Assembly: GCA_028688995.1 (NCBI GenBank)
Contig: JAQTXB010000004.1
Span: 99,636-163,635, forward strand
DNA from: Aliarcobacter sp.
Lineage (GTDB): Bacteria; Campylobacterota; Campylobacteria; Campylobacterales; Arcobacteraceae
Reading direction: 5' to 3'
DNA length: 64,000 nucleotides
This document shows positions 49,467-64,000 of the stretch, in pieces. Made by a program: the position numbers and the translations under genes. Below the pieces are notes generated by a model. The model was not told the origin of the DNA, ran no database searches, and saw only the letters and a program-made list of their open reading frames with translations. Every line of letters begins with the position of its first letter. Within the stretch, counting starts at the first letter, position 1.

Positions 49467-52445
49467 TTGAAATATATTTACTTATTGTTCTTTTTTATAT
49501 CTATAAATCTTTATGGAATAAATGAAGATTCTTCAAATACAGAAAAAATTAAATTACAACTTCAATGGGAACATCAATTTGAATTTGCAGGATTTTATGC
49601 CGCAAAAGAGAAAGGTTTTTACAAAGAAGTAGGACTTGATGTTGATTTTTTAGAATTTAATCCTAAATTAAATATTGTGGATGAAGTTCTCAATGGAAAT
49701 GCAAATTATGGACTTACATATTCTTCTTTAATTGCTGATTATATGCAAGGTAAACCTATAATTTTTGTGGCCAATTTTTTTAAACAATCACCTTTGGTTT
49801 TAGTCACACAAAAAGATATTTATACACCGGCTGATTTAAAAGGGAAAAAAGTTATGGGACTTCTTGATAGTAGCCATAAACAAATTATTATGACAATGTT
49901 AGAAAAATTTAATTTAACTGAAAAAGATTTCCAAAATATTCCACGAAAATTTAGTATTGAAAGTTTTATTAATAAAAAAGTTGATGCAGTAAGTGTTTTT
50001 ACTACAAATGAAATTTTTATTTTGGATAAATTAGGTATCAAATATAATATTTTAGATCCAGCTGTTTTTGGAATAAAATTTTATGATTTAAATCTTTTTA
50101 CAACAAAAAGTGAATTAATAAATAATCCTTCTCGCGTTGAAAAATTTAGAAATGCATCAATTAAAGGCTGGGAATATGCATTAAGTCATAAAGAAGAGTT
50201 AGTTGAAATAATTAGTCAAAAATATAATACTCAAAATAAATCTAAAGAGGCATTACTTTTTGAAGCAAAACAAATAGAACATTTAATGCTAAGTAATATT
50301 TATTCTATAGGAAGTGTTGATTTATCAAGAGTAGAAATGATTGCAGATAGTTTTGCTCAATCTTTAGGTATATTCAAAGAAACAAGAGAAAAATTAGAAT
50401 CATTTATTTACAAAGTTGAAGTTAATTTTCTTGAATTAACTTCAAAAGAAAAAGAATATCTTGAAAATAAAAAAGAGATAAAAATGTGTGTTGATCCCAA
50501 TTGGCTACCTTTAGAAAAGATAGAAAATGGAGAACATATAGGGATTTCCGCTGAATTTATAAAAGCAATTTCAAAAAAAATAAAAATTCCAATACATCTT
50601 ATTGAAACAACAAAATGGGCAGAATCTTTAGAAAATATAAAACAGAGGAATTGTGATATTTTAGCATTAGCAGAAGAAACTCCATTAAGAAAACAATATC
50701 TTGATTTTACAACTCCATATATCAAAGTACCATTAGTAATTGCTACTAAAGAAGGATTACCTTTTATTAATAATTTAAATAATATTCAAGGAAAAACTAT
50801 TGGAGTTGTAAAAAACTATTCAATAGAAGAGTTATTAAGAAATAAATATCCAGATATTAATTTAGTTGAAGTTGAATCAATTCAAGAGGGTTTATCTTTT
50901 GTTGAACAAGATAAGATTTTTGGTTTTTTAGATAATTCAATGGTTATTAATAATGAAATACAAAAAAATAGGATGAATGATCTTGGTATTACCGGTCAAT
51001 TTGTAGAATCATTTTCTTTGAGTATAGCTTCACGAAATGATGAACATATTTTAAATGAAATTTTAGAAAAAGCTTTATTATCTATTAATGACAAAGAAAG
51101 AACTTTTTTTATACAAAAATGGAACAATATTAATTATCAAACAAAAATTAATAATCAATTAATTATTCAAATACTTTTTTTTACGATTGTATTTATTAGT
51201 ATTTTTATTTATTGGAATTTAAAATTAAAAGAAGAGATAAAAAATAAAGAATTAGTCCAAAAAAAATTAAAAGAGAGTGAAGAACGATTTAGAACACTTT
51301 TTGATATTGCACCAATTCTTTTGGATTCTTTTGATAAAGATGGAAAAGTTGTCCTTTGGAATAAAGAGTGCGAAAAAGTTTTTGGTTGGAGTTTTGAAGA
51401 GATAACAAAAGTAGAAAAACCTTTGGATTTATTTTATCCTGATCCTTTGGTGCAAAAAAAGATTTTTGAAGCTTTTAATGATAATAGTGAAAATGTATAC
51501 AAAGAATGGTATCCAAAAACAAAAGATGGAAAAGAAATTATTACAAAATGGGCAAATATTAAACTTCCAAATGATGAATTGATACATATTGGTTATGATA
51601 TAACTCAACAAAGAAAAAGTGAAAAAATTGTTCAAGAAAGAACAGAACAACTTCATATTACAAAACAACAATTAGAAGAGTTAAATTGTTCTTTAGAGAA
51701 AAGAATTAAAGATGAAATTAGTAAAAATACTAAACAACAAATAATGCTGATGCATCAAAGTAAATTGGCACAAATGGGTGAAATGATTGAAAATATTGCC
51801 CATCAATGGAGACAGCCTTTAGCTCAAATAAATTCAGCTGTACTATTGGTTGACATGGCATTAAATAAAAATAAGATTAAAGATTTAATGATTGAAAATA
51901 AATTAACTGAAATAGAATCTTTAACTGCATATATGTCAAAAACTATTGATGATTTTAAAAACTTCTTTAGTCCAAATAAACAAAAAAATATCTTTACAAT
52001 TGAAAGTGCTATCACAAAAGCTCTTGATATTGTAAATGGATTAATTCATTTACATTATATAGAAGTAGTAATGAATATTGAAAAAGATTTAAGATGTTAT
52101 AGTTATATAGAAGAACTTCAACAAGTTATTCTAATTATTATAAACAACGCAATAGATGTTTTAATTTTGAAAAAAATATCTACACCAAAAATTATTATTA
52201 CAGCTTGGAAAGAGAAAGGTAATATTATAATAAACATAGAAGATAATGCCTTAGGGATAGATAGTAGCCATTTTGATAAAATCTTTGAACCTTATTTTAC
52301 GACAAAACTTAAATCCCAAGGAACAGGACTAGGACTTTACATGGCAAAAATGATTATTGAAAATGGATTATTAGGTTTATTAAGTGTTGAAAATAAATCA
52401 AATGGTGCATGTTTTACAATTAAAATACCAGAAGGAAAAGAATGA
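49467..52445 (+). CDS. Histidine kinase with two periplasmic binding domains (NMT1/THI5-like and SBP_bac_3)
   Basis: A 992-residue kinase. A signal peptide covers about residues 1-18. An NMT1/THI5-like domain spans about 25-270 (KLQLQWEHQFEFAGFYAAKE, KGFYKEVGLDVDFLEF). An SBP_bac_3 domain spans about 340-560 (IKMCVDPNWLPLEKIENGEH, QRNCDILALAEETPLRK). TM is at about 568-588, then a PAS domain (about 600-720), a coiled coil and the kinase: ENIAHQWRQPLAQ with H779, and HATPase G1 IEDNALGID and G2 GTGLGLYMAK. Start is TTG. The overlap ATGA joins it to the response regulator gene. The two ligand domains suggest sensing of thiamine-precursor-like and amino-acid-like ligands; this is inferred from the families. 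Confidence 0.88.
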   Translation: MKYIYLLFFFISINLYGINEDSSNTEKIKLQLQWEHQFEFAGFYAAKEKGFYKEVGLDVDFLEFNPKLNIVDEVLNGNANYGLTYSSLIADYMQGKPIIFVANFFKQSPLVLVTQKDIYTPADLKGKKVMGLLDSSHKQIIMTMLEKFNLTEKDFQNIPRKFSIESFINKKVDAVSVFTTNEIFILDKLGIKYNILDPAVFGIKFYDLNLFTTKSELINNPSRVEKFRNASIKGWEYALSHKEELVEIISQKYNTQNKSKEALLFEAKQIEHLMLSNIYSIGSVDLSRVEMIADSFAQSLGIFKETREKLESFIYKVEVNFLELTSKEKEYLENKKEIKMCVDPNWLPLEKIENGEHIGISAEFIKAISKKIKIPIHLIETTKWAESLENIKQRNCDILALAEETPLRKQYLDFTTPYIKVPLVIATKEGLPFINNLNNIQGKTIGVVKNYSIEELLRNKYPDINLVEVESIQEGLSFVEQDKIFGFLDNSMVINNEIQKNRMNDLGITGQFVESFSLSIASRNDEHILNEILEKALLSINDKERTFFIQKWNNINYQTKINNQLIIQILFFTIVFISIFIYWNLKLKEEIKNKELVQKKLKESEERFRTLFDIAPILLDSFDKDGKVVLWNKECEKVFGWSFEEITKVEKPLDLFYPDPLVQKKIFEAFNDNSENVYKEWYPKTKDGKEIITKWANIKLPNDELIHIGYDITQQRKSEKIVQERTEQLHITKQQLEELNCSLEKRIKDEISKNTKQQIMLMHQSKLAQMGEMIENIAHQWRQPLAQINSAVLLVDMALNKNKIKDLMIENKLTEIESLTAYMSKTIDDFKNFFSPNKQKNIFTIESAITKALDIVNGLIHLHYIEVVMNIEKDLRCYSYIEELQQVILIIINNAIDVLILKKISTPKIIITAWKEKGNIIINIEDNALGIDSSHFDKIFEPYFTTKLKSQGTGLGLYMAKMIIENGLLGLLSVENKSNGACFTIKIPEGKE

Positions 52446-53131
52446 CGCAAAGTGTTTATCCATATAAAATATTATTTGTTGAAGATGAAAAAGCAATAAG
52501 AGAGAATTATAGCACTTATTTAAAAACGTTTTTTGCTGAAGTATTTGAAGCAGAAGATGGTGTAAAAGCTTATGAACTCTATAAATTAAAAAAACCAGAT
52601 ATTATGATTGTTGATATAAATATACCTAAACTTAATGGTTTAAAACTACTTGAAAAAATAAGAGAAAATGATTATACAACTAAAGCTATTATGTTAACTG
52701 CTCATACAGATAAATCATTTTTATTAAAAGCAACAACATTAAAACTTACAAAATATTTAGTTAAACCTATTAGTAGAAAAGATTTAAATGAAGCTTTAGA
52801 GTCTACTATAAATGAAATATTAAAATATAGTGTGATATCTATACAGAAAATAGAATTATCTGAAAATTATAGTTGGAATGTAGAGTTAAAAGAGTTAAAA
52901 CATCACAATCATATAATTGAACTTACTAATAAAGAAAGAACTCTTTTAGAACTACTTTTCTCCCATAAAAATAGAGTATTCACTTATGAAGAAATTTTTG
53001 AATATGTTTGGGGATATGATGAGTCTATTACATTAAATGGGCTTAAAAATATGATAAAAAGATTGAGAAAGAAATTCCCAGAAAATACAATATTAAATAT
53101 TTTTAATGAAGGATATAAGATTAATTTTTAA
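52442..53131 (+). CDS. OmpR-family response regulator, partner of the dual-sensor kinase
   Basis: A 229-residue regulator. The receiver has ILFVEDEKAIRENY (acidic pair), the phospho-acceptor in IMIVDINIPKLNG and the Lys in KYLVKPISR, and is intact. The winged-helix domain (about 135-229) contains NKERTLLELLFSHKNRVFTY and ends FNEGYKINF. It overlaps the kinase stop by 4 bases. The direct repeats in front of the next operon (53243-53275) are of the type such regulators bind, so it probably controls type I secretion genes. Confidence 0.9.
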   Translation: MTQSVYPYKILFVEDEKAIRENYSTYLKTFFAEVFEAEDGVKAYELYKLKKPDIMIVDINIPKLNGLKLLEKIRENDYTTKAIMLTAHTDKSFLLKATTLKLTKYLVKPISRKDLNEALESTINEILKYSVISIQKIELSENYSWNVELKELKHHNHIIELTNKERTLLELLFSHKNRVFTYEEIFEYVWGYDESITLNGLKNMIKRLRKKFPENTILNIFNEGYKINF

Positions 53132-53286: not shown

Positions 53287-53357
53287 CCTTTCAAAGTTTT
53301 ATTCATTAGTTATTTTATTATTTCTAATGAGAATATATTTTGTATAAAGGGGTTTAC

Positions 53358-55925
53358 ATGGAATTAAAAGTTAAGAAAAAATTAATAAGTGTTGTTGCAA
53401 GTAGTGTTTGTTTACTTAGCATAAATTTACAAGCATTAACATTAAAAGAGAGTGTTTTAGAGGCTTTAGACACAAATCCTGTTGTTCAAGAAAGACTTAA
53501 AAATTTCAATGAAACACAGCAAGATTTAGAAATTACAAAATCAGAATGGCTTCCATCACTTGATTATAGAGCTACTTTTGGAAGAAATGAAGCTGGAAAT
53601 CTTAAAAATGAAACAGCTGAAAGTAGCTATAACCATAATGTTATAGATGATGGTTACAATCACTATACACAATCACTAAAACTTACACAAAATATTTTTA
53701 ATGGTTTTAGTACTACTCATAAAATAGATTATCAAAGAGCAAGAATTTTAGGTGCTGCTCAGCACTATTTAGAAAATGCAAATGATATTGCATTTCAAAT
53801 GTCAGGAGCTTATTTAGACGTTATTAGAAGTTATAAGTTATATCAAAATGCAAAAGATAATGTAACTATTAATGAAAAAATTTATAAAGATGTACAATCT
53901 TTATATAATCAAGGATTAACTACAAAATCAGAGATGACAAAAATTTACGCTTCATTGTCACTTGCAAAATCAAATTTAGTTGTTCAAAAAAATAATGCTG
54001 TTGATAAAGAGTTTAGATTTAAAAGGTTATTTGGAAGAGAAGTTGATGTTTCAACTTTGACTTTGCCTAATTTAAGTTATGCTTTACCTGAAAGTAAAGA
54101 AAGAGCAACAATGTATGCTATTCAAAATAATCCTTCAATTTTAGTAAGTAATTTTAATATTAAGGGTGCACAAGCTTTATACAAAGAGAAAAAAGGCAAT
54201 TTTTATCCAAAAGTTGATTTAGAAATAGAGCAAGTATATAATGACGTTAATAAAAGAAACAACTTTGATATGCCAGATGATAGATTAAAAGCATATGTTG
54301 TTCTTAGCTGGAATTTATATAAAGGTGGTGCTCATACTGCTGATCTTCAAAAAAGTAGAAGTACAATAAATAAAGAAGTTGAATTACAAAGAGATTTAAA
54401 AAGACAAACTATTGAGGGATTAGAACTATCTTGGTCTGCTTATGAATTATTAGGTCAACAACTTGAAGAGTTATATAAATATTATGAATATTCTCAAGAA
54501 ACACTTGATAGTTATCAAAGTGAATATGAGATGGGAAGAAGAACTTTACTTGACTTATTATCAGCACAAAATGATTTAGTAAATTCAAAAAGTCAAATTA
54601 TAAATGCTCAAATGGATAAACTTTTTGCTCAATATAGAATTTTAGATGCAATGGGATTATTAGTAAATGCTGTTGTAGATGATAAACAAAATTATGACAA
54701 AATAGTTTCTCCTACTATTAAACCATTTGATATTGTAAAAGATGAACTACCAGTTAATCTTGATGTTGATAAAGATGGGGTAGTTGATTCTTTAGATATT
54801 TGTGATAATTCTAAAAATAATGATGATATTGCTCCTTATGGTTGTTCTCAAAAAGAAGAAGATTCTGATCTTGATGGTATTGTAAACTCTAAAGATAAAT
54901 GTCCAGAAAGTGTTTTTGGTGAGATAGTTGATGCAAATGGTTGTTCAGTTGAAAATTCAGTAAATAAATTTGCAGTAAAAAATGAAGATTATGTAAATAG
55001 TGTTATTGCATATACAGAACAAAGTCCAAAAAAATCTGATAAATTAGGTTTATATGATTATGAATTTAATGTTGCAGCAAATAAAAATGTAAAATCTACA
55101 CCTTTAGACAATCACTTAATGTATGACCAATTTGCACTTATAAAAAGATTTGATTTTGTAAATATGGATAAATTTGATTCAAATGATAATAATTTATCAG
55201 AAGTTGCAAAAACTATAAACAAATATAAAGATGAAAAAATAAAAGTTACTGTAATTGGGCATACTCAAGGTATGGAAGATAAAAAAGAGAGCTTTGATAA
55301 AGCAGAAACTTATGCAAAAACTATTAAAGATGAATTGGTTAAAAATGGCGTAAATAAAGATGTAATTGTTCAAGAATCAAGGGTTGATTATGACAAAGCA
55401 TTTTTAGAAACAAATGGAAGTGATAAAAGCTTAAATAATTTAGTTGCTATTGCACTTTATGTTCCTAAAAAAGTTGAAAAAGTTGTTCTTGATGATGATA
55501 AAGATGGTGTAATTAATGAATTAGATAAATGTCCAAATACTCCACTTGGTTATACAGTTGATGAAAATGGTTGTACAAATAAAATAAATTTAGAAGTTTT
55601 ATTTGAAAATAATTCAGCTGTTATAAAAGATGATACAAAAGAAAAAGTTTTAGCTTTTGCAAAATACCTAAAAGATAATAAAGAGTTTAAAAGTGTAATT
55701 ACTGGTCATGCAAGTAAAGATAAAAGTAGTGCTACATATAATCAAAAACTATCAGAAAGTAGAGCTAATGCAATAAAAGATTTACTTGTTGCTAATGGTG
55801 TAGAATCTTCAAGACTTCAAGCTGTTGGTAAAGGTTTTGATGAACCAATAGCAAATAATGACACACCAGAAGGTCAAGCTTTAAATAGAAGAATTGAAGC
55901 GGAACTTATAAAAATTACAAAATAG
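53358..55925 (+). CDS. TolC-type outer membrane protein fused to thrombospondin-3 repeats and two OmpA-like domains
   Basis: An 855-residue fusion. A signal peptide covers about 1-27 (LISVVASSVCLLSINLQA). The TolC/OEP domain spans about 30-440 (LTLKESVLEALDTNPVVQER, NQGLTTKSEMTKIYASLS, GRRTLLDLLSAQNDLVNS). Thrombospondin-3-like calcium repeats are at about 469-525 (DVDKDGVVDSLDICDN and DSDLDGIVNSKDKCP) and 712-740 (DDDKDGVINELDKCP). A degenerate OmpA-like domain lies at about 590-707 (KVTVIGHTQG), and a good one at 740-853 (VITGHASKDKSSATYNQKLS, RANAIKDLL, LNRRIEAELI). The TolC part should form the export duct and the OmpA part may anchor it to peptidoglycan. Start at 53358. Confidence 0.85.
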   Translation: MELKVKKKLISVVASSVCLLSINLQALTLKESVLEALDTNPVVQERLKNFNETQQDLEITKSEWLPSLDYRATFGRNEAGNLKNETAESSYNHNVIDDGYNHYTQSLKLTQNIFNGFSTTHKIDYQRARILGAAQHYLENANDIAFQMSGAYLDVIRSYKLYQNAKDNVTINEKIYKDVQSLYNQGLTTKSEMTKIYASLSLAKSNLVVQKNNAVDKEFRFKRLFGREVDVSTLTLPNLSYALPESKERATMYAIQNNPSILVSNFNIKGAQALYKEKKGNFYPKVDLEIEQVYNDVNKRNNFDMPDDRLKAYVVLSWNLYKGGAHTADLQKSRSTINKEVELQRDLKRQTIEGLELSWSAYELLGQQLEELYKYYEYSQETLDSYQSEYEMGRRTLLDLLSAQNDLVNSKSQIINAQMDKLFAQYRILDAMGLLVNAVVDDKQNYDKIVSPTIKPFDIVKDELPVNLDVDKDGVVDSLDICDNSKNNDDIAPYGCSQKEEDSDLDGIVNSKDKCPESVFGEIVDANGCSVENSVNKFAVKNEDYVNSVIAYTEQSPKKSDKLGLYDYEFNVAANKNVKSTPLDNHLMYDQFALIKRFDFVNMDKFDSNDNNLSEVAKTINKYKDEKIKVTVIGHTQGMEDKKESFDKAETYAKTIKDELVKNGVNKDVIVQESRVDYDKAFLETNGSDKSLNNLVAIALYVPKKVEKVVLDDDKDGVINELDKCPNTPLGYTVDENGCTNKINLEVLFENNSAVIKDDTKEKVLAFAKYLKDNKEFKSVITGHASKDKSSATYNQKLSESRANAIKDLLVANGVESSRLQAVGKGFDEPIANNDTPEGQALNRRIEAELIKITK

Positions 55926-55949: not shown

Positions 55950-58109
55950 GTGAGTACTAAAATTTTAAACACTAAAGATACTTTGTTGGAATCTTTAGTT
56001 TTATATACAAGATTATTTCATAAACCTTTTTCTAGCGAATCATTACTGTCAGGTTTACCTATTAATTCAAACCTGACAGATCAAATGCTTTTTTCTAAAG
56101 TTAATTCAAAATCTCTTTTTTCTAGAGCTGCTTCAAGAGCAGGATTAAAAACTACAATAATTGAAAAACCAATTAAAGAATTCTTAAATTTACAATTACC
56201 AGTAATTCTACTTTTATCAAATGAAAATAGTTGTATTTTAGAGAGTTTTAATGAAGATAAAACAAAAGTAAAAGTGATATTTGCTGGTTCTGCTGAACCT
56301 TTAGAAGAGTGGGTTGAAATAGATAAATTAGAAGATGAATATTTAGGTTTTGCATTTATGTTAAAAAAGGCCTATGAATATGAACATGAAAATGGTAAAA
56401 AAACTCTTGATTTATCAAATCAAAAACATTGGTTTTGGAGTACCTTGGGTTTTTCAAGAAAAATATATTTTGATTGTATTTTAGCTTCAATTTTAATAAA
56501 TTTATTTGTTTTAGCAACTCCATTGTTTACTATGAATGTCTATGATAGAGTAATCCCAAATAATGCCCAAGAGACACTCTTAGTATTTACAATTGGTATA
56601 GTTGTAGTATTTATTTTAGATGCAAGTTTAAAGTTTTTAAGAACATATTTTTTAGAAATGGCTGGTAAAAAAAGCGATATTATAATGTCATCTATAATCT
56701 TTGAAAAAGTTCTAGATTTACAGATGTTTGCTCATCCTAAATCAGTTGGCTCATTTGCAAATAACTTAAAAAGCTTTGATAGTATCCGTGGATTCTTAAC
56801 TAATGCAACATTAGGTGTATTAATTGATTTTCCTTTTGCAATACTTTTTTTATGTGTAATATTTTATATCTCAGGAATTTTGGTTTTTATTCCAATTTTT
56901 ATTATTTTTATAATAATTATTTATGCAATTATGATTAGAAAACCTTTGCAAAAAAGTATTGAAAGTACCTATGAAGCAAGTGCTAAAAAAAATGGAATAT
57001 TAATTGAAGCCTTACACAATATTGAGACTATAAAAGCTCAAGGAATGTCTGGAAATATTCAATTTAATTGGGAAGAATCAACAGGTGAAATAGCAAATAA
57101 AAGTTTAAAATCTAGAATAATATCTTCTTCAATTCCAACAGTAACTGGATTATTGGTTGGATTAAATACTGTTTTAATTATAGTTTTTGGAGTTTATCAA
57201 ATTCAAAACTTTGAATTAACAATGGGTGGATTAATAGCTACTATGATTTTATCAGGTAGAGCAATTGCTCCAATGGGACAAATTGTTGGATTAATTACAA
57301 ATTATGAAGATGCAAAAACTTCATTTAAAATGTTAGATGAAATAGTAAATAAACCACTTGAAAGACCAATTGCAAGAGAGTTTGTTAAAAGACCATCATT
57401 AAAAGGAAATATAGAGTTTAGAAATGTATCTTTTAAATATCCAGATAGTGAAGCATATGCCCTAAAAAATGTTAGTTTTATTATAAAAGAGGGTGAAAAA
57501 GTTGCTTTTATTGGAAGAATTGGTTCTGGAAAATCTACTATTGCAAAATTGATATTGAAACTTTATGAACCACAAGAGGGGTCAATATTAATAGATGGAA
57601 TTGATATATCTCAAATAGATCCAGCAGATTTGAGAAAAAAAATAAGTTATGTACCTCAAGACATTCATTTATTTAGAAATAGCATAAAAAATAATATTTT
57701 AGGAAGTCATAAATTTGTTGATGATGAATGGATGATTGAATGTTCAAAAATAAGTGGAACAGATGAGTTTGTAAGACTTCATCCGATGGGTTATGATATG
57801 CCAATAGGTGAAAGAGGTACTGGACTTTCAGGAGGTCAGAGACAAAGTGTTGGAATTGCTAGGGCTTTAATAAATGATTCGGATATATGGTTATTTGATG
57901 AACCAACAAATGCAATGGACCAAACAAGCGAAAGTAATGTTTTGACTAATCTAAAAGAAAATACTGAAAATAAAACACTACTTTTAGTTACTCAAAAAAT
58001 GAATATGTTAGATTTGGTTTCAAGAGTAATTGTTATGAATAATGGTGAAAAAGTTTTAGATGGCGCAAAACTAGAGGTAATAAAAAAACTAGGAGCAAAT
58101 AATGACTAA
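55950..58109 (+). CDS. Type I secretion ABC transporter (LapB-like), C39-like domain without cysteine
   Basis: A 719-residue inner-membrane transporter. The N-terminal about 130 residues look like a C39-like domain but lack the catalytic cysteine, the state found in HlyB and LapB, where the domain only recognises substrate. Six membrane helices lie at about 155-420. The ATPase has GRIGSGKSTIAKLIL (Walker A), LSGGQRQSVGIARAL (signature) and DIWLFDEPTNAMDQ (Walker B). The start is GTG at 55950 with AAGGTAAG upstream. Overlaps the adaptor gene by 8 bases. It probably exports the large adhesin downstream. Confidence 0.92.
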   Translation: MSTKILNTKDTLLESLVLYTRLFHKPFSSESLLSGLPINSNLTDQMLFSKVNSKSLFSRAASRAGLKTTIIEKPIKEFLNLQLPVILLLSNENSCILESFNEDKTKVKVIFAGSAEPLEEWVEIDKLEDEYLGFAFMLKKAYEYEHENGKKTLDLSNQKHWFWSTLGFSRKIYFDCILASILINLFVLATPLFTMNVYDRVIPNNAQETLLVFTIGIVVVFILDASLKFLRTYFLEMAGKKSDIIMSSIIFEKVLDLQMFAHPKSVGSFANNLKSFDSIRGFLTNATLGVLIDFPFAILFLCVIFYISGILVFIPIFIIFIIIIYAIMIRKPLQKSIESTYEASAKKNGILIEALHNIETIKAQGMSGNIQFNWEESTGEIANKSLKSRIISSSIPTVTGLLVGLNTVLIIVFGVYQIQNFELTMGGLIATMILSGRAIAPMGQIVGLITNYEDAKTSFKMLDEIVNKPLERPIAREFVKRPSLKGNIEFRNVSFKYPDSEAYALKNVSFIIKEGEKVAFIGRIGSGKSTIAKLILKLYEPQEGSILIDGIDISQIDPADLRKKISYVPQDIHLFRNSIKNNILGSHKFVDDEWMIECSKISGTDEFVRLHPMGYDMPIGERGTGLSGGQRQSVGIARALINDSDIWLFDEPTNAMDQTSESNVLTNLKENTENKTLLLVTQKMNMLDLVSRVIVMNNGEKVLDGAKLEVIKKLGANND

Positions 58110-59481
58110 ATATAAAGAAATTTATAATGCATTTTTTGAGAAAACTCCAAAATTGCCTAAAAAACCATTAAACGTAAATGATTATGAATATATGAATAGT
58201 TTAAGTGCTGCTGTTATTCATAGAAGATCTAAAAAATTGCATTGGGTTCTTATTTGTTTTTTATTAACAATTACAATTTTTTTAGTTTGGGCATCAATTG
58301 CAAAAATTGATGAAATCGCAAGGGGAAGTGGAAAAGTAGTTCCTAATGGTCAAAATCAAATAGTTCAAAATTTAGAGGGTGGAATTGTTTCAGAAATTCT
58401 TATAAAAGAGGGAGATCTTGTTGAAAAAGATCAAGTTCTAATTAGAATAAGTAATGAAAAATCAAATTCTACTGCTGCATCTAATGAGTTAAAATCTCTT
58501 TATTTTCAAGCACAGATAAAAAGACTTGAAGCAGAATTAAAAAGAGAGAATTTTACTTATGAAATTAGTGATAATCAACAATTGAATGATTTTTTAAGTA
58601 ATGAAAATGAATTATTTATTACAGATAAAAAACAGCTTGAATCAAAAATAATGATATTAAAAGAGCAAATCAAACAAAAAGAGAATGAATTAACAGATGC
58701 AAGACAAACTATTAATCATTTGAAATTTTCTGTAGAAGCAATTTCGAAAGAAGTAGAAATGACAAGACCTATGGTTGAGCGAGGAATCCGTTCTCAAGTT
58801 GATTTCCTAAAACTTCAAAGGGAACAAAGTGATGCTAAACAAAAACTTCAAAGTGTTATTTTATCTGTTACGAAAATTGAATCAGAAATTTTAGAAATAA
58901 ATAAAAAGATTGATGAAACCAATCAAATAAATGACTCAGAAGTAAGACAAAAATTAAATGAAACTATTACTTCGTTAAAAGATGTAGAAGCAAATTCTGT
59001 TGCATCAACGGATCAAGTTTCAAGAACAATCGTAAAAGCTCCATCAAATGGAATAGTACAAAAACTTCATATAAATACTATTGGAGGAGCAATTAAACCA
59101 GCACAAGATTTAATAGAAATTGTTCCAACTGATTATAAGTTGATTGTTGAAGTAAAAATTTTACCTAAAGATATTGCATTTATTTATCATGGACAAAAAG
59201 CAATAGTTAAATTTTCAGCTTATGATTTCTCTATTTATGGGGGATTAACTGGAAAAGTTATAAATATAAGTCCAGATACTATAACTGAGAAAGATGATAA
59301 AACTTACTATTTAGTAAGAATTGAGACAGAAAAGAATTATATTGGTGAAAAAGATAAATCTATGAAAATTATTCCTGGAATGGTTGCTGATGTAGATATT
59401 ATCACTGGTAAAAAATCAATATTAGATTATATATTAAAACCTATATTAAAAACTAAACAATATACATTTACGGAAAGATAA
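58102..59481 (+). CDS. HlyD/LapC-family periplasmic adaptor of the type I system
   Basis: A 459-residue membrane fusion protein. One N-terminal membrane helix at about 48-68 (WVLICFLLTITIFLVWASIA) is followed by the lipoyl/beta-barrel start ARGSGKVVPNGQNQIVQNLE and GGIVSEILIKEGDLVEKDQV. A long coiled-coil hairpin spans about 130-300, then the barrel (APSNGIVQKLHINTIGGAI, KIIPGMVADVDIITGKKSI). It links the ABC transporter to the TolC-type channel. It shares one base with the LuxR-type gene that follows. Confidence 0.93.
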   Translation: MTKYKEIYNAFFEKTPKLPKKPLNVNDYEYMNSLSAAVIHRRSKKLHWVLICFLLTITIFLVWASIAKIDEIARGSGKVVPNGQNQIVQNLEGGIVSEILIKEGDLVEKDQVLIRISNEKSNSTAASNELKSLYFQAQIKRLEAELKRENFTYEISDNQQLNDFLSNENELFITDKKQLESKIMILKEQIKQKENELTDARQTINHLKFSVEAISKEVEMTRPMVERGIRSQVDFLKLQREQSDAKQKLQSVILSVTKIESEILEINKKIDETNQINDSEVRQKLNETITSLKDVEANSVASTDQVSRTIVKAPSNGIVQKLHINTIGGAIKPAQDLIEIVPTDYKLIVEVKILPKDIAFIYHGQKAIVKFSAYDFSIYGGLTGKVINISPDTITEKDDKTYYLVRIETEKNYIGEKDKSMKIIPGMVADVDIITGKKSILDYILKPILKTKQYTFTER

Positions 59482-60080
59482 TGAAAATAGCACTTTATAG
59501 CAATGATATTGCACTTATTCTTAGATGGGAAAATTCTTTAAATAAATATGAGACTCAAATCATAGAGGATTATGAAGATTTATGTACTTTAAAAGATTCT
59601 GTATTGATTTTAAGTGATTGTGTAAATTTAGAAAATAGTGATTTTGTTATTTCAATTTTGTTAAAAAATTCAAATAAAATATTAGTTCTAAAAAGGGTTC
59701 CCGAGTTTGAAAACGCTAGAAAATGGCTAGAAAAAGGAATTCATGGTTATGGAAATTGTTTGATGACTTCATCATATCTAAACTCAGCAGTAGAAGCTAT
59801 TTTAAATAATCATATTTGGTTAATACCACAAATTACTACACAGTTTTTGAAAAATATGATAGAAAAAAAAGATAATAAGGTTGATGAAAAAGAACTTTTT
59901 AAGAATCTAACAAAAACAGAAAAAAGAATTGCAACTTTACTAAAAAATGGATATACAAATACAAATATTAGTCAAGAACTAAATGTTTCTATAAATACAG
60001 TAAAAACACATATAAAACATATTTATGAAAAACTAAATGTAAAAGATAGGTTATCTTTTGCAGGATTATTTTCCAGATAA
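59481..60080 (+). CDS. LuxR-type transcriptional regulator with atypical receiver
   Basis: A 199-residue regulator. The C-terminal HTH_LuxR domain is clear: LTKTEKRIATLLKNGYTNTN and ISQELNVSINTVKTHIKHI. The N-terminal about 120 residues resemble a receiver fold (IALYSNDIALILRW, SVLILSDCVNLENSD), but the acidic pair, the usual -P position after the acceptor and the conserved Lys are not clear. It may sense a non-phosphate signal. It is encoded between the adaptor gene and the adhesin gene and likely regulates one of them. Confidence 0.75.
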   Translation: MKIALYSNDIALILRWENSLNKYETQIIEDYEDLCTLKDSVLILSDCVNLENSDFVISILLKNSNKILVLKRVPEFENARKWLEKGIHGYGNCLMTSSYLNSAVEAILNNHIWLIPQITTQFLKNMIEKKDNKVDEKELFKNLTKTEKRIATLLKNGYTNTNISQELNVSINTVKTHIKHIYEKLNVKDRLSFAGLFSR

Positions 60081-60185: not shown

Positions 60186-63100
60186 ATGGCAACAATTGCA
60201 GGAACAATAAATAGCTTATCAAATGGAGTTTTCCATGTAAAAGATGAAAATGGAAATGATAGAGTTTTAAAAGTAGGTGATACAATTTATGAAAATGATA
60301 CTGTTTATGGAGATAGTGGAAACTCATCTTCATCAAAAGTAGAAATTCTTCTTTCTGGAAGTGATGTTATAGTTTTAAGTGAAGGACAAAAACAGTTAAT
60401 TGATTCTTCATTAATTGAAACTGCTTTTGGAACAGAAGAATTCTTCTTTACAAGAGAGGGCTTAGATTTAAAAGCTGATAATCATAACTCTAGTGCAGAT
60501 GTAGTTAGTGATTTAAGAGATGCTGAATTTACAAATGATCAAAAAGATACTCAAGATAATGGCTCTTTTTCTGATGCTAATAATAGTGATGTTACAAATG
60601 AAGATACAGCTGAAGGAAAAGAAAAGGTTAAGGATGAAGCAGTTGTAAATGCAGAATTTGATGCAAGAACTGGTGATGCTGTAAATGTAATAAGTGATTT
60701 AAGAAATGCTCAATTTAGAGCACGAACACAAGTATTTCAAGATAAATCTTTTTTTGAAAATGAGTCAAAAGATAGATTAACATCTTTTAAAAATGCTGAT
60801 AGACCAGATTATACAAATCCATCTGTTCCTTCATCAACACCACTTCCATCAACGCCAGTACCCGTTATTGTAAAACCAATAATAGAAACCCCAGTAATTA
60901 TTATTGGGAATTTAAGTGTAGATGATGTTAGTGCCTATGAAAGTGATGGTTTTTTAATATTTACAGTATCTTTAGATAGAAGTGTTGCTTCACCTGTAAC
61001 TTTTAATTATTCAACTTCACCAATAACTGCAACATCAAATGGAGTGGATTATCGTGATGTATCAGGAGTAATCACAATTCCAGCAGGAAGTACAAGTGTT
61101 ACAATTAAAGTTCCAGTTACAGATGATTATTTATCTGATAATGGTGAAACTATAAGAATTAATATTTCAAATGTTGTTGGAAATGCAAATATTACTAAAC
61201 CAGAAGGTATAGGAACAATATTAGATAATCCAGTAAATAATCCAGAGAATGGAACACCAAATACACCAACAGAAACAGGTGGATATGGAGAGGAAGATAG
61301 TGTATATGCAATTATAACAGGTGCAGTAAGTGTAAATGAAGGTAATACAACAACATATACAGTAAAACTTGTAGATAAAGATGGAAATCCAGTAGTAGTT
61401 ACTAAAGAAACAGAAGTAACAATAAAATATACAAATGTAACAACACAAAATGGTGATACAGAATTTAATAACAATAATACAATAAGTGTAAAGATACCAG
61501 CGAATGGTTCATCAAATACATTTACAGTAGAAAGTTTAGATGATTATTTAGCAGATAATGGTGAGAAATATAATGTTGCAATTACAAAAGTAGATACAAA
61601 TGAATTTGAGAATGTAGTAATTGGTGATAAGAGTGGAAATAATAAAGATGTTACTACGGAGATATTAGATAATCCAGTAAATAATCCAGAGAATGGAACA
61701 CCAAATACACCAACAGAAACAGGTGGATATGGAGAGGAAGATAGTGTATATGCAATTATAACAGGTGCAGTAAGTGTAAATGAAGGTAATACAACAACAT
61801 ATACAGTAAAACTTGTAGATAAAGATGGAAATCCAGTAGTAGTTACTAAAGAAACAGAAGTAACAATAAAATATACAAATGTAACAACACAAAATGGTGA
61901 TACAGAATTTAATAACAATAATACAATAAGTGTAAAGATACCAGCGAATGGTTCATCAAATACATTTACAGTAGAAAGTTTAGATGATTATTTAGCAGAT
62001 AATGGTGAGAAATATAATGTTGCAATTACAAAAGTAGATACAAATGAATTTGAGAATGTAGTAATTGGTGATAAGAGTGGAAATAATAAAGATGTTACTA
62101 CAGAGATATTAGATGATACAGATAATACTCCAAATAATCCAAATGATGGTGTTGAATCAAACCATGAATCAGTAATTATTAAACTTATAGCTTGTGATGC
62201 AAGTGGTAATCCAATACTTGAAGCAGATGGAAAAACATATAAAATTGTAAACAGTGTAAATGAAGCTGATAGTGCCAAATACATGGCCTTGGCATTTGAA
62301 CCAAATAGTACAACATTTACAACAGAAACAAAATTATCATTACAAGGTGGAACTGTAACTGTGGATACTGCAAATGGTACAGCTATAGGCGTAGTTTCTC
62401 AAACTAAAGAAGATGGAACGCAAGATTTTATTATAGTTGATGATAAAGTTGTAAGTCTTGGAGTTGTATTTGAAGTAGAAACTTTGGATGATTATATTTC
62501 AGATAATAATGAAACTTACACAGTATCAATAAATAGTGGTTCATACACTCACCCAACAACGCCAATATATGAAAATGTAGAAATAAATACACAAGCAGTT
62601 ACAACGACGATAAAAGATAATAGTAATCCAAATGATTCTACTCCTTATAATCCAAATGATCCAACTAACCATACTCAAGAGAGTGATAAAGAGATTGTTC
62701 TTATTAAACTTTTTGCTGCAGATGAAAATGGAAATGTAATAAAAGATGTAAGTGGAAATTATCTTTTAGCAAATGAAGCCCCAGAAGGAACAAATGCAAA
62801 CTATATAGCTTATGCATTTAAAGATGGAACAATAACTTTTAATGATTCAACAAAATTAGATATTCAAACAGGTACAGTTGATATAAGTTTTCACAATAAT
62901 ACAGCATCTGGTGCAACAACTAAAACATTGACAGATGGAACACAAGACTTTAATAATAGTGCTAAAACATCAGTTACTATAGGTCAAAGTTTTAGTACAG
63001 AAATTTTTAAAGATTTAGTGGCTGAGTCAACAGAAAACTACACAGTTACAATAGATAATAACTCTTATAGTGGAAATTATGAAAGTGTTAATATTGATAC

Positions 63101-64000
63101 GAATCCTGTAACTACAACAATTCATGATGAAAAACTGTTTGTTAAAATTGAAGCAATTGATAATGAAGCTTTTGAAGGTGAAGATTTAACGTATAAAATT
63201 TCAATAGTAAATAAAGATGGAGATTTAGTAGAAGTACCAGCTGGGAAAAGTATAGATGTAGAGTTAATTTATAATAAAAATAGTACAGATACAGCTACAC
63301 AAGCAGTTGATTATGATAATACACTTCATCATACAATTACTATTAATGGTGGAACTAGTGGAACAACAATTACTATTCCAACTATTGATGATTATTATGC
63401 TGAGGGTGATGAGGGATTGAGTATAACTATTGGAACTATTACAAATACTGGAAATGCTTTTGAAAATATAGCTTCTCATACAGTAGTAAATGGTGCAACA
63501 AGTGATAAAATTACAACAACTGGAACAATCAAAGATAATCCTGCAAAAATTGATCAACCTGATACAAGTACAACTCCTGATGAACCAACAAATGGAAGTT
63601 ATGGAGAAGAGGATACTGTTTATGCAATAATAACTGGACCAGCTAATGTAAATGAGGGTGATACAACAACAAATTACACAATAAAACTTGTTGATAAAGA
63701 TGGAAATGCAGTTGTAGTTACAAAAGATACAAAAGTAACAATAACATACAATAATTCAACAACACAAGATGGTGATACTGAATATAATAATGGTAATACA
63801 ATTGAAGTAACAATTCCAGCAAATAGTTCATCAAATACATTTACAGTTGATACAATTGATGACCCTTACAAAGATGATGGAGAAAAATACAAATTAACTA
63901 TTACAGATGTTGAAAATACAGGTGAATTTGAAAATGTAAAAATTGGTGATAAAGATGGAAATAATAAAGATGTTACTACAACTATACATGATAATACAAA
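60186..64000 (+). CDS. Giant retention-module adhesin (LapA/BapA-like), N-terminal part
   Basis: The frame is open from the ATG at 60186 (AAGGAAG upstream) to the window end, 1271 codons so far. Residues 1-75 form a retention module: MATIAGTINSLSNGVFHVKD then GNDRVLKVGDTIYENDTVYG. A repeated motif SDLRDAEF / SDLRNAQF follows, then a proline-rich linker at about 216-245 and a chain of at least seven Ig/Calx-beta-like modules (for example GVDYRDVSGVITIPAGSTSV). Two modules are nearly identical at DNA level. No canonical LapG site ([TPA]AAG) is visible. It is probably exported by the adjacent T1SS and held at the surface. The C-terminal secretion signal is off the window. Confidence 0.85.
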   Translation, partial: MATIAGTINSLSNGVFHVKDENGNDRVLKVGDTIYENDTVYGDSGNSSSSKVEILLSGSDVIVLSEGQKQLIDSSLIETAFGTEEFFFTREGLDLKADNHNSSADVVSDLRDAEFTNDQKDTQDNGSFSDANNSDVTNEDTAEGKEKVKDEAVVNAEFDARTGDAVNVISDLRNAQFRARTQVFQDKSFFENESKDRLTSFKNADRPDYTNPSVPSSTPLPSTPVPVIVKPIIETPVIIIGNLSVDDVSAYESDGFLIFTVSLDRSVASPVTFNYSTSPITATSNGVDYRDVSGVITIPAGSTSVTIKVPVTDDYLSDNGETIRINISNVVGNANITKPEGIGTILDNPVNNPENGTPNTPTETGGYGEEDSVYAIITGAVSVNEGNTTTYTVKLVDKDGNPVVVTKETEVTIKYTNVTTQNGDTEFNNNNTISVKIPANGSSNTFTVESLDDYLADNGEKYNVAITKVDTNEFENVVIGDKSGNNKDVTTEILDNPVNNPENGTPNTPTETGGYGEEDSVYAIITGAVSVNEGNTTTYTVKLVDKDGNPVVVTKETEVTIKYTNVTTQNGDTEFNNNNTISVKIPANGSSNTFTVESLDDYLADNGEKYNVAITKVDTNEFENVVIGDKSGNNKDVTTEILDDTDNTPNNPNDGVESNHESVIIKLIACDASGNPILEADGKTYKIVNSVNEADSAKYMALAFEPNSTTFTTETKLSLQGGTVTVDTANGTAIGVVSQTKEDGTQDFIIVDDKVVSLGVVFEVETLDDYISDNNETYTVSINSGSYTHPTTPIYENVEINTQAVTTTIKDNSNPNDSTPYNPNDPTNHTQESDKEIVLIKLFAADENGNVIKDVSGNYLLANEAPEGTNANYIAYAFKDGTITFNDSTKLDIQTGTVDISFHNNTASGATTKTLTDGTQDFNNSAKTSVTIGQSFSTEIFKDLVAESTENYTVTIDNNSYSGNYESVNIDTNPVTTTIHDEKLFVKIEAIDNEAFEGEDLTYKISIVNKDGDLVEVPAGKSIDVELIYNKNSTDTATQAVDYDNTLHHTITINGGTSGTTITIPTIDDYYAEGDEGLSITIGTITNTGNAFENIASHTVVNGATSDKITTTGTIKDNPAKIDQPDTSTTPDEPTNGSYGEEDTVYAIITGPANVNEGDTTTNYTIKLVDKDGNAVVVTKDTKVTITYNNSTTQDGDTEYNNGNTIEVTIPANSSSNTFTVDTIDDPYKDDGEKYKLTITDVENTGEFENVKIGDKDGNNKDVTTTIHDNT
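61218..61661 (+). repeat. Adhesin tandem repeat, copy 1 (444 bp)
   Basis: First of two near-identical head-to-tail units, each 148 codons, encoding an Ig-like module with VYAIITGAVSVNEGNTTTYT. It differs from copy 2 by one base that I could find (G at 61658 against A at 62102). Keeps the reading frame. Confidence 0.85.
61662..62105 (+). repeat. Adhesin tandem repeat, copy 2 (444 bp)
   Basis: Second unit, offset exactly 444 bases from copy 1. The matching DNA continues a few bases past the unit end. It encodes the same 148-residue module. Confidence 0.85.
63594..64000 (+). repeat. Adhesin repeat, diverged copy 3
   Basis: A third version of the module (EEDTVYAIITGPANVNEGDT, GDKDGNNKDVTTTIHDN) with many base changes. 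It shows the repeat family is older than the recent duplication of copies 1 and 2. It runs to the end of the window. Confidence 0.7.

Follow-up and report, generated by a model that had tools for sequence, protein, structure and literature searches.

A TolC-type export channel fused to TSP3 repeats and OmpA-like domains in a Lap-like adhesin operon of Arcobacteraceae, a candidate wall-anchored exit channel

Adhesins of the LapA type keep biofilms together and, as they do so, sit as plugs in a TolC-like pore. It has been shown that their retention module anchors them at the TolC-like channel LapE until LapG cuts (PMC13090378). How such a pore resists extraction from the thin outer membrane is a question to which no answer was found in the literature searched. 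The closest described relatives of the channel reported here are the TolC proteins of the LapE/AggA type (LapEBC; AggABC), whose systems likewise combine an LssB/LapB-type ABC transporter, an HlyD protein and a giant adhesin, with LapG and LapD homologues nearby; the retention-type N-terminus of their adhesins is matched weakly by the present one. No fused wall-binding domain has been reported for LapE or AggA, whereas the present channel is about twice as long and carries TSP3 repeats and two OmpA-like domains.

Proteins with some of these features have been described in other settings. In Shewanella, the bpf operon contains an OmpA-like gene, SO4321, which contributes to biofilm in a way that is not understood (PMC4523816). 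Like its counterparts in Vibrio, Salinivibrio and Marinomonas, it provides an OmpA-family protein from an adhesin export operon. SO4321 is however a separate protein; here its counterpart and the channel form a single chain, which points to the partner with which SO4321 may work. TpgA, a periplasmic protein associated with the wall, binds both peptidoglycan and the outer-membrane anchor of the trimeric autotransporter AtaA, and has been calculated to about double the extraction force (PMC13082670, PMC8151025), but it is a stand-alone protein which serves a type V adhesin and does not form a secretion channel. In the type I system of Salmonella SPI-4, which exports a giant adhesin, the accessory protein SiiA binds peptidoglycan (PMC12607715); in contrast to the present channel, it is an inner-membrane proton-channel subunit of the Mot/Exb/Tol family and no part of the outer-membrane duct. 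Similarly, YbjP is an extra outer-membrane anchoring partner for the TolC trimer, although it is a lipoprotein acting in trans, whose examination revealed no avid binding to peptidoglycan (PMC13082787), whereas the tail described here is fused. Finally, the porins OprF and OmpA share with the present protein a TSP3 linker and an OmpA-like C-terminal module, but they retain the canonical Asp. In the membrane they form an 8-stranded barrel in place of a TolC duct.

Descriptions of TolC-OmpA or TolC-SPOR fusions were not found in open-access PMC full texts, and no experiments on any such fusion were found in the open-access literature. The channel can be regarded as a variant of the LapE-type channel, and the recurrent-fusion pattern reported below is new to the literature searched.

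Domain architecture of the fused channel

The window, a stretch of 64,000 nucleotides of an Aliarcobacter genome, contains at positions 53358-55925 a single intact ORF of 855 residues on the + strand, on which all features of this gene and its operon given below are also located. The ATG is at 53358 and the stop codon ends at 55925; an alternative TTG start called at 53340 would lead to a protein of 861 residues. The ORF contains neither stop nor frameshift. A signal peptide, judged by eye, is predicted at residues 1-25 (53358..53432; MELKVKKKLISVVASSVCLLSINLQA), in which no lipobox was seen, also by eye. It is followed by a TolC/outer membrane factor domain spanning residues 25-443 (53430..54686). 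This region matches TIGR01844 (type_I_sec_TolC) with 229.7 bits for a cut-off of 225.15, and Pfam detects two OEP stretches (PF02321) in this N-terminal half. Consistently, the AlphaFold model of the half (me541b2f18a0a, monomer) has a TolC fold, for which Foldseek returned TolC structures such as 1ek9 on top (E about 4e-13) and CmeC (4mt4) lower.

The C-terminal half alternates TSP3-type repeats and OmpA-like domains. Repeats 1 and 2 occupy residues 469-529 (54762..54944; DVDKDG and DSDLDG, with two Cys pairs) and match PF02412 with 26.9 bits (cut-off 25), while repeat 3, at residues 712-739 (55491..55574; DDDKDG, with one Cys pair), was identified by motif count and homologue alignment. The three D-x-D-x-D-G copies, at residues 469, 502 and 712, are not due to chance, as the shuffled C-terminal half contained a mean of 0.02 copies and none of 5000 shuffles reached three. 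The six Cys of this half form three pairs, one per repeat, and the Asp and Cys residues of repeats 1 and 2 show little or no variation across 26 homologues. The TSP3 repeats are typical in sequence, and their motifs make a calcium dependence of these linkers plausible.

The first OmpA-like domain, which is diverged, covers residues 582-703 (55101..55466). Taken alone it scores 35.3 bits against PF00691 (cut-off 27.2), which rules out the possibility that it is not an OmpA domain, and its assignment is further supported by the model of the C-terminal half and by the domain order of sister OmpA genes. It has neither the NxxLSxxR nor the NRR signature in the motif table. The second domain, at residues 745-852 (55590..55913), scores 75.2 bits against PF00691, and its sequence matches in the PDB are OprF (5u1h) and Acinetobacter OmpA (3td3). 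Both domains were modelled with OmpA-like folds (AlphaFold, m42388a87bbf8); Foldseek retrieved for this half OmpA domains from OprF, from Acinetobacter and from further proteins, and the model of the second domain superposes on 3td5, which contains a bound peptide, with a Z of 17.0. Collectively, the profiles and models of both halves confirm the order TolC, TSP3, diverged OmpA, TSP3 and well-preserved OmpA within one protein, as had been read from the sequence in the original prediction, which placed the TolC domain at residues 30-440.

The binding motif of the second OmpA-like domain is partly altered. It retains N..LS..RA (NQKLSESR) and NRRIE, and R802 and N843-R845 are invariant in 26 aligned homologues of the window type. 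The GHTD motif has become GHAS, the DAP-contacting Asp being replaced by Ser786, which is invariant in 26 of 26 window-type fusions. In Acinetobacter OmpA, we take Asp271 and Arg286 to be the essential contacts. Related operons that encode OmpA as a protein of its own also have the Ser form, which may thus represent a functional variant of the domain.

The Lap-like operon and its adhesin

The fused channel gene is the first of an operon which then encodes an LssB/LapB-type ABC transporter, an HlyD protein, a regulator and a giant adhesin. The LssB/LapB-type T1SS permease/ATPase (55950..58109; TIGR03375, 857.6 bits for a cut-off of 693.1) starts 24 bases past the channel stop and precedes the HlyD-family periplasmic adaptor (58102..59481; TIGR01843, 399.5 bits for a cut-off of 208.65). 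The next gene (59481..60080), assigned by PF00196 and neighbourhood tables, encodes a LuxR/NarL-type regulator and has the same position in most related loci. Promoter and terminator scans gave signals no commoner than in shuffles. The regulator itself, of 199 residues and with no receiver-domain match, is found near HlyD in most of the LssB loci surveyed, including those of Gammaproteobacteria. Upstream of the channel, the window also encodes a sensor kinase (49467-52445) to which NMT1/THI5-like and SBP_bac_3 periplasmic domains are fused and which has a PAS domain as well, partnered by an OmpR-type regulator (52442-53131); this pair is kept upstream of many fused-channel operons.

The adhesin gene (60186..64000) runs beyond the window and was completed in L039, a stretch that reaches past the window end (L039:7821-18341), giving a protein of 3506 residues. 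Its N-terminus weakly resembles the LapA retention module (NF033682, retention_LapA, 19.1 bits for a cut-off of 50), and Ala-Ala, the canonical LapG site, is absent from residues 1-300; the system is therefore called Lap-like rather than a proven Lap system. Two further genes lie 3' of the adhesin and past the window, one for a LapG-like transglutaminase-fold protease (L039:18402; Peptidase_C93, E 4e-13) and one for a LapD-like receptor (L039:19001; LapD_MoxY_N, E 3e-26). As these genes (L039:18402-20000) stand beside an adhesin devoid of an early Ala-Ala, the cleavage site may differ.

It had been asked whether the fusion always adjoins a retention-module adhesin, and in this strict form the association fails: an adhesin with a homologous N-terminus is adjacent to the channel in 10 of the 12 window-type loci for which the flank was covered. 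The two exceptions (L048 and L049) have no adhesin next door, and adhesin homologues are encoded elsewhere in both genomes.

Origin and recurrence of wall-binding-type domains on export channels

A search for the same fusion in other genomes returned full-length, stop-free homologues in about 25 of 104 Arcobacteraceae genomes, and a finished plasmid of Arcobacter cloacae, pACLO, carries it under the sole annotation "TolC family outer membrane protein". The recurrence of the same full-length ORF rules out an assembly join or a frameshift between two genes.

Unfused counterparts of the two parts can be recognised in three loci (L052, L055 and L058), in which a TolC of 514-518 residues is followed by a separate OmpA gene of 324-359 residues. 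The latter contains a diverged OmpA domain, a TSP3 repeat and an OmpA domain, matching the order in the fused protein, and its mature start past the signal peptide (GVYDYPY) aligns to fused residue 564 (GLYDYEF). In a tree of 119 channel domains, from which the gammaproteobacterial fusions were left out, all window-type fusions group together in a single clade (support 99), next to which the unfused pair L052/L055 branches as its sister (97). The simplest reading of these sequences is a single fusion of two adjacent genes. Such a joining might have been neutral, TolC and its OmpA partner acting on one chain as they did before, and the sister loci which retain the two as adjacent genes fit this view. 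It is compatible with an anchoring function and not opposed to it, but the neutral joining of neighbours leaves unexplained the repeated gain of different domains described below, and we regard it as a very improbable account of the tail.

The possibility that the fusion is unique to this operon or genome was rejected. Among 60 further LssB-linked Arcobacteraceae loci, which were picked to span genera and channel lengths and not at random, 41 channels have a fused domain of the peptidoglycan-binding type (SPOR or OmpA), as called with profiles built on these same sequences, Pfam confirming representatives of most classes. A C-terminal SPOR, in one to four copies, is present on 31 of these channels and a C-terminal OmpA on three, which are of a type other than the window's; representatives of both classes were confirmed by Pfam. 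Six have an N-terminal SPOR, which is above the Pfam cut-off in L104, detected by the local profile only in L116 and L117, and assigned by kinship to L104 in L105-L107. The remaining one (L118) has an N-terminal OmpA with a weak match (18.3 bits, cut-off 27.2). An OmpA gene is present in trans in the operon in 6 of the 60 loci, and 13 have the domain neither fused nor in trans, the SPOR-like tails of L076, L097, L098, L100 and L102 being scored as "none" for want of Pfam support. Four LssB systems are encoded in the genome of the window; OmpA is fused to the channel of one and SPOR to those of two, while the last is bare. Well supported branches force a minimum of five changes for the C-terminal OmpA and nine for the C-terminal SPOR, gains and losses being pooled. 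These 13 loci, and the many in other Campylobacterota families with no fused domain, mean that some such systems can do without anchoring.

Several of these loci have features of their own. The TolC proteins of L062 and L063 reach about 1350 residues, with very long charged or coiled spacers ahead of SPOR. OmpA genes end the export operons of L064, L066, L071, L072, L073 and L088; several of their products begin in a lipobox-like manner, and those of L064 and L071 have ankyrin repeats ahead of the OmpA domain. In another group (L068, L077, L080, L082, L085, L091-L093, L095 and L096), downstream giant proteins have a common N-terminus, MKLTIK...V..L..DL. These proteins are mostly found beside SPOR-type channels, and that of L093 is unrecognised by the retention-module model; they perhaps contain another retention domain.

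Beyond the Arcobacteraceae, three families (f7, f4 and f10) were compared, which we take to be Sulfurimonadaceae, Sulfurovaceae and Sulfurospirillaceae, respectively. The first has TolC-OmpA proteins of 604-672 residues; in L130 and L156, the next gene encodes another protein, with a pair of OmpA domains. In the second, one channel (L136) combines a C-terminal OmpA with a weak N-terminal SPOR, and two loci (L135 and L137) have OmpA beside TolC. Most channels of the third are bare. Extensions outside these classes were also seen: L127 and L129 are extended at the C-terminus by Sel1-type sequence, and no Pfam family matches the stretch added at the N-terminus of the channels L120 and L122. Among Gammaproteobacteria, surveyed through G459, four TolC-OmpA fusions (L185, L186, L187 and L195) are located beside LapG and LapD, and two of them (L185 and L186) retain the complete GHTD, NxxLSxxR and NRR signature. 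An OmpA gene also lies near TolC in the adhesin operon of Marinomonas, Vibrio fluvialis, Salinivibrio and Photobacterium; a contig scan with a Marinomonas LapB as query gave four relevant relatives and two unrelated matches.

These comparisons bear on the possibility that the OmpA-like tail is a docking platform which keeps LapG, LapD or the retention module close to the channel exit, its OmpA fold having ceased to bind peptidoglycan. The Asp ligand is missing from both OmpA-like domains of the window and the LapG and LapD genes are linked, as this would predict; moreover, a role of SO4321 in translocating BpfD and BpfG was the guess of the Shewanella authors (PMC4523816). However, SPOR and OmpA are unrelated folds which share peptidoglycan binding and are interchanged on sister channels, and the gammaproteobacterial fusions retain the full binding signature. 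Docking is thus an improbable function for the tail.

OEP proteins of the same genomes with no LssB linkage were used as controls. In seven genomes, a wall-binding-type domain was found on 18 of 20 LssB-linked OEP proteins versus 2 of about 50 others, short OEPs being judged by length unless fetched and one LssB-linked case being assigned by group analogy; with such length-based calls, this analogy and the non-independence of the species, the Fisher value of 1e-12 is only indicative. The exceptions among the controls are L140, with three SPOR domains near an ABC exporter, and L141, with a C-terminal LysM near a giant ORF. The LysM match of the latter TolC (L141:6249-8054) is borderline (20.7 bits for a cut-off of 20.9) and, next to the giant ORF, which starts MKRKNLKKPMISALEQRILFDGAA, the protein is possibly another wall-anchored export channel.

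A more general role of the tail in assembly or stability has also to be weighed, in which it would assist the folding, the trimerisation or the outer-membrane stay of the channel and have no special part in holding the adhesin. Such a module has a possible precedent in YbjP, the lipoprotein partner of E. coli TolC, for which avid peptidoglycan binding was not found (PMC13082787), and the fused channel, in which no lipobox was seen, could use its tail in place of a lipid anchor (cf. OprM-type channels). Yet the RND-linked TolCs of the same genomes likewise have no such tails, the long ones (L139 and L142) being devoid of SPOR and OmpA. In addition, the domains gained belong to wall-binding families and not to lipid anchors, and their enrichment tracks adhesin exporters. 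We consider this role unlikely, if less so than docking.

A proposed wall anchor for the channel

The repeated addition of unrelated wall-binding families, at both ends of the channel, is most economically explained if their function is to tether it to the wall. Anchoring of these channels to the cell wall is, at the level of sequence, well supported by comparison. The original prediction that the tail fixes the window's export channel to the wall is strengthened by the OmpA, SPOR and borderline LysM domains fused at either end of related channels and by the neighbouring OmpA gene of the sister loci; the replacement of the DAP-contacting Asp by Ser, together with the missing signature of the first OmpA-like domain, weakens it as regards the peptidoglycan binding predicted for the window copy. 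The two window-type loci with no adjacent adhesin limit it further, and the retention of the adhesin under load which it proposed is conjectural. The adhesin's sub-threshold retention-module score and its lack of an early Ala-Ala also count against the model.

On balance, we think it likely that the window encodes a dedicated LapE-type exit channel with its own peptidoglycan-anchoring module, by which the force on the adhesin would be passed to the sacculus. For the LssB/LapB-HlyD exporter, the TolC half would provide a trimeric duct in the outer membrane. Export of the giant adhesin through this duct would proceed to the point at which the putative N-terminal retention module becomes stuck, either in the channel or below it, and with the module halted there, the channel itself would be the membrane anchor of the adhesin. 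By analogy with E. coli TolC, the TolC domain presumably ends near the equatorial level. The TSP3/OmpA tail would run from this end into the wall and tie the trimer to peptidoglycan, a trimer having three tails and six OmpA-like domains. For TolC, the equatorial region has been proposed to be located at the level of peptidoglycan (PMC13082787). Pulling on the adhesin would then load the sacculus, and the channel would not be dragged from the outer membrane.

For Lap-like systems at large, the balance tips slightly towards channels being commonly tied to peptidoglycan, a link repeatedly made through an OmpA, SPOR or LysM fusion or through an adjacent OmpA gene. The OmpA proteins of Shewanella, Vibrio and Marinomonas would be the same anchor supplied in trans. 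The fusions thereby suggest what the OmpA-like proteins encoded in adhesin operons may do; for SO4321 of Shewanella, this question had been left without an answer (PMC4523816). To the question of how the pore resists extraction, the repeated wall-binding fusions offer a concrete and testable answer. If this is true, adhesins would be retained by virtue of a plugged channel anchored to the wall, and not by a pore with the outer membrane as its only hold.
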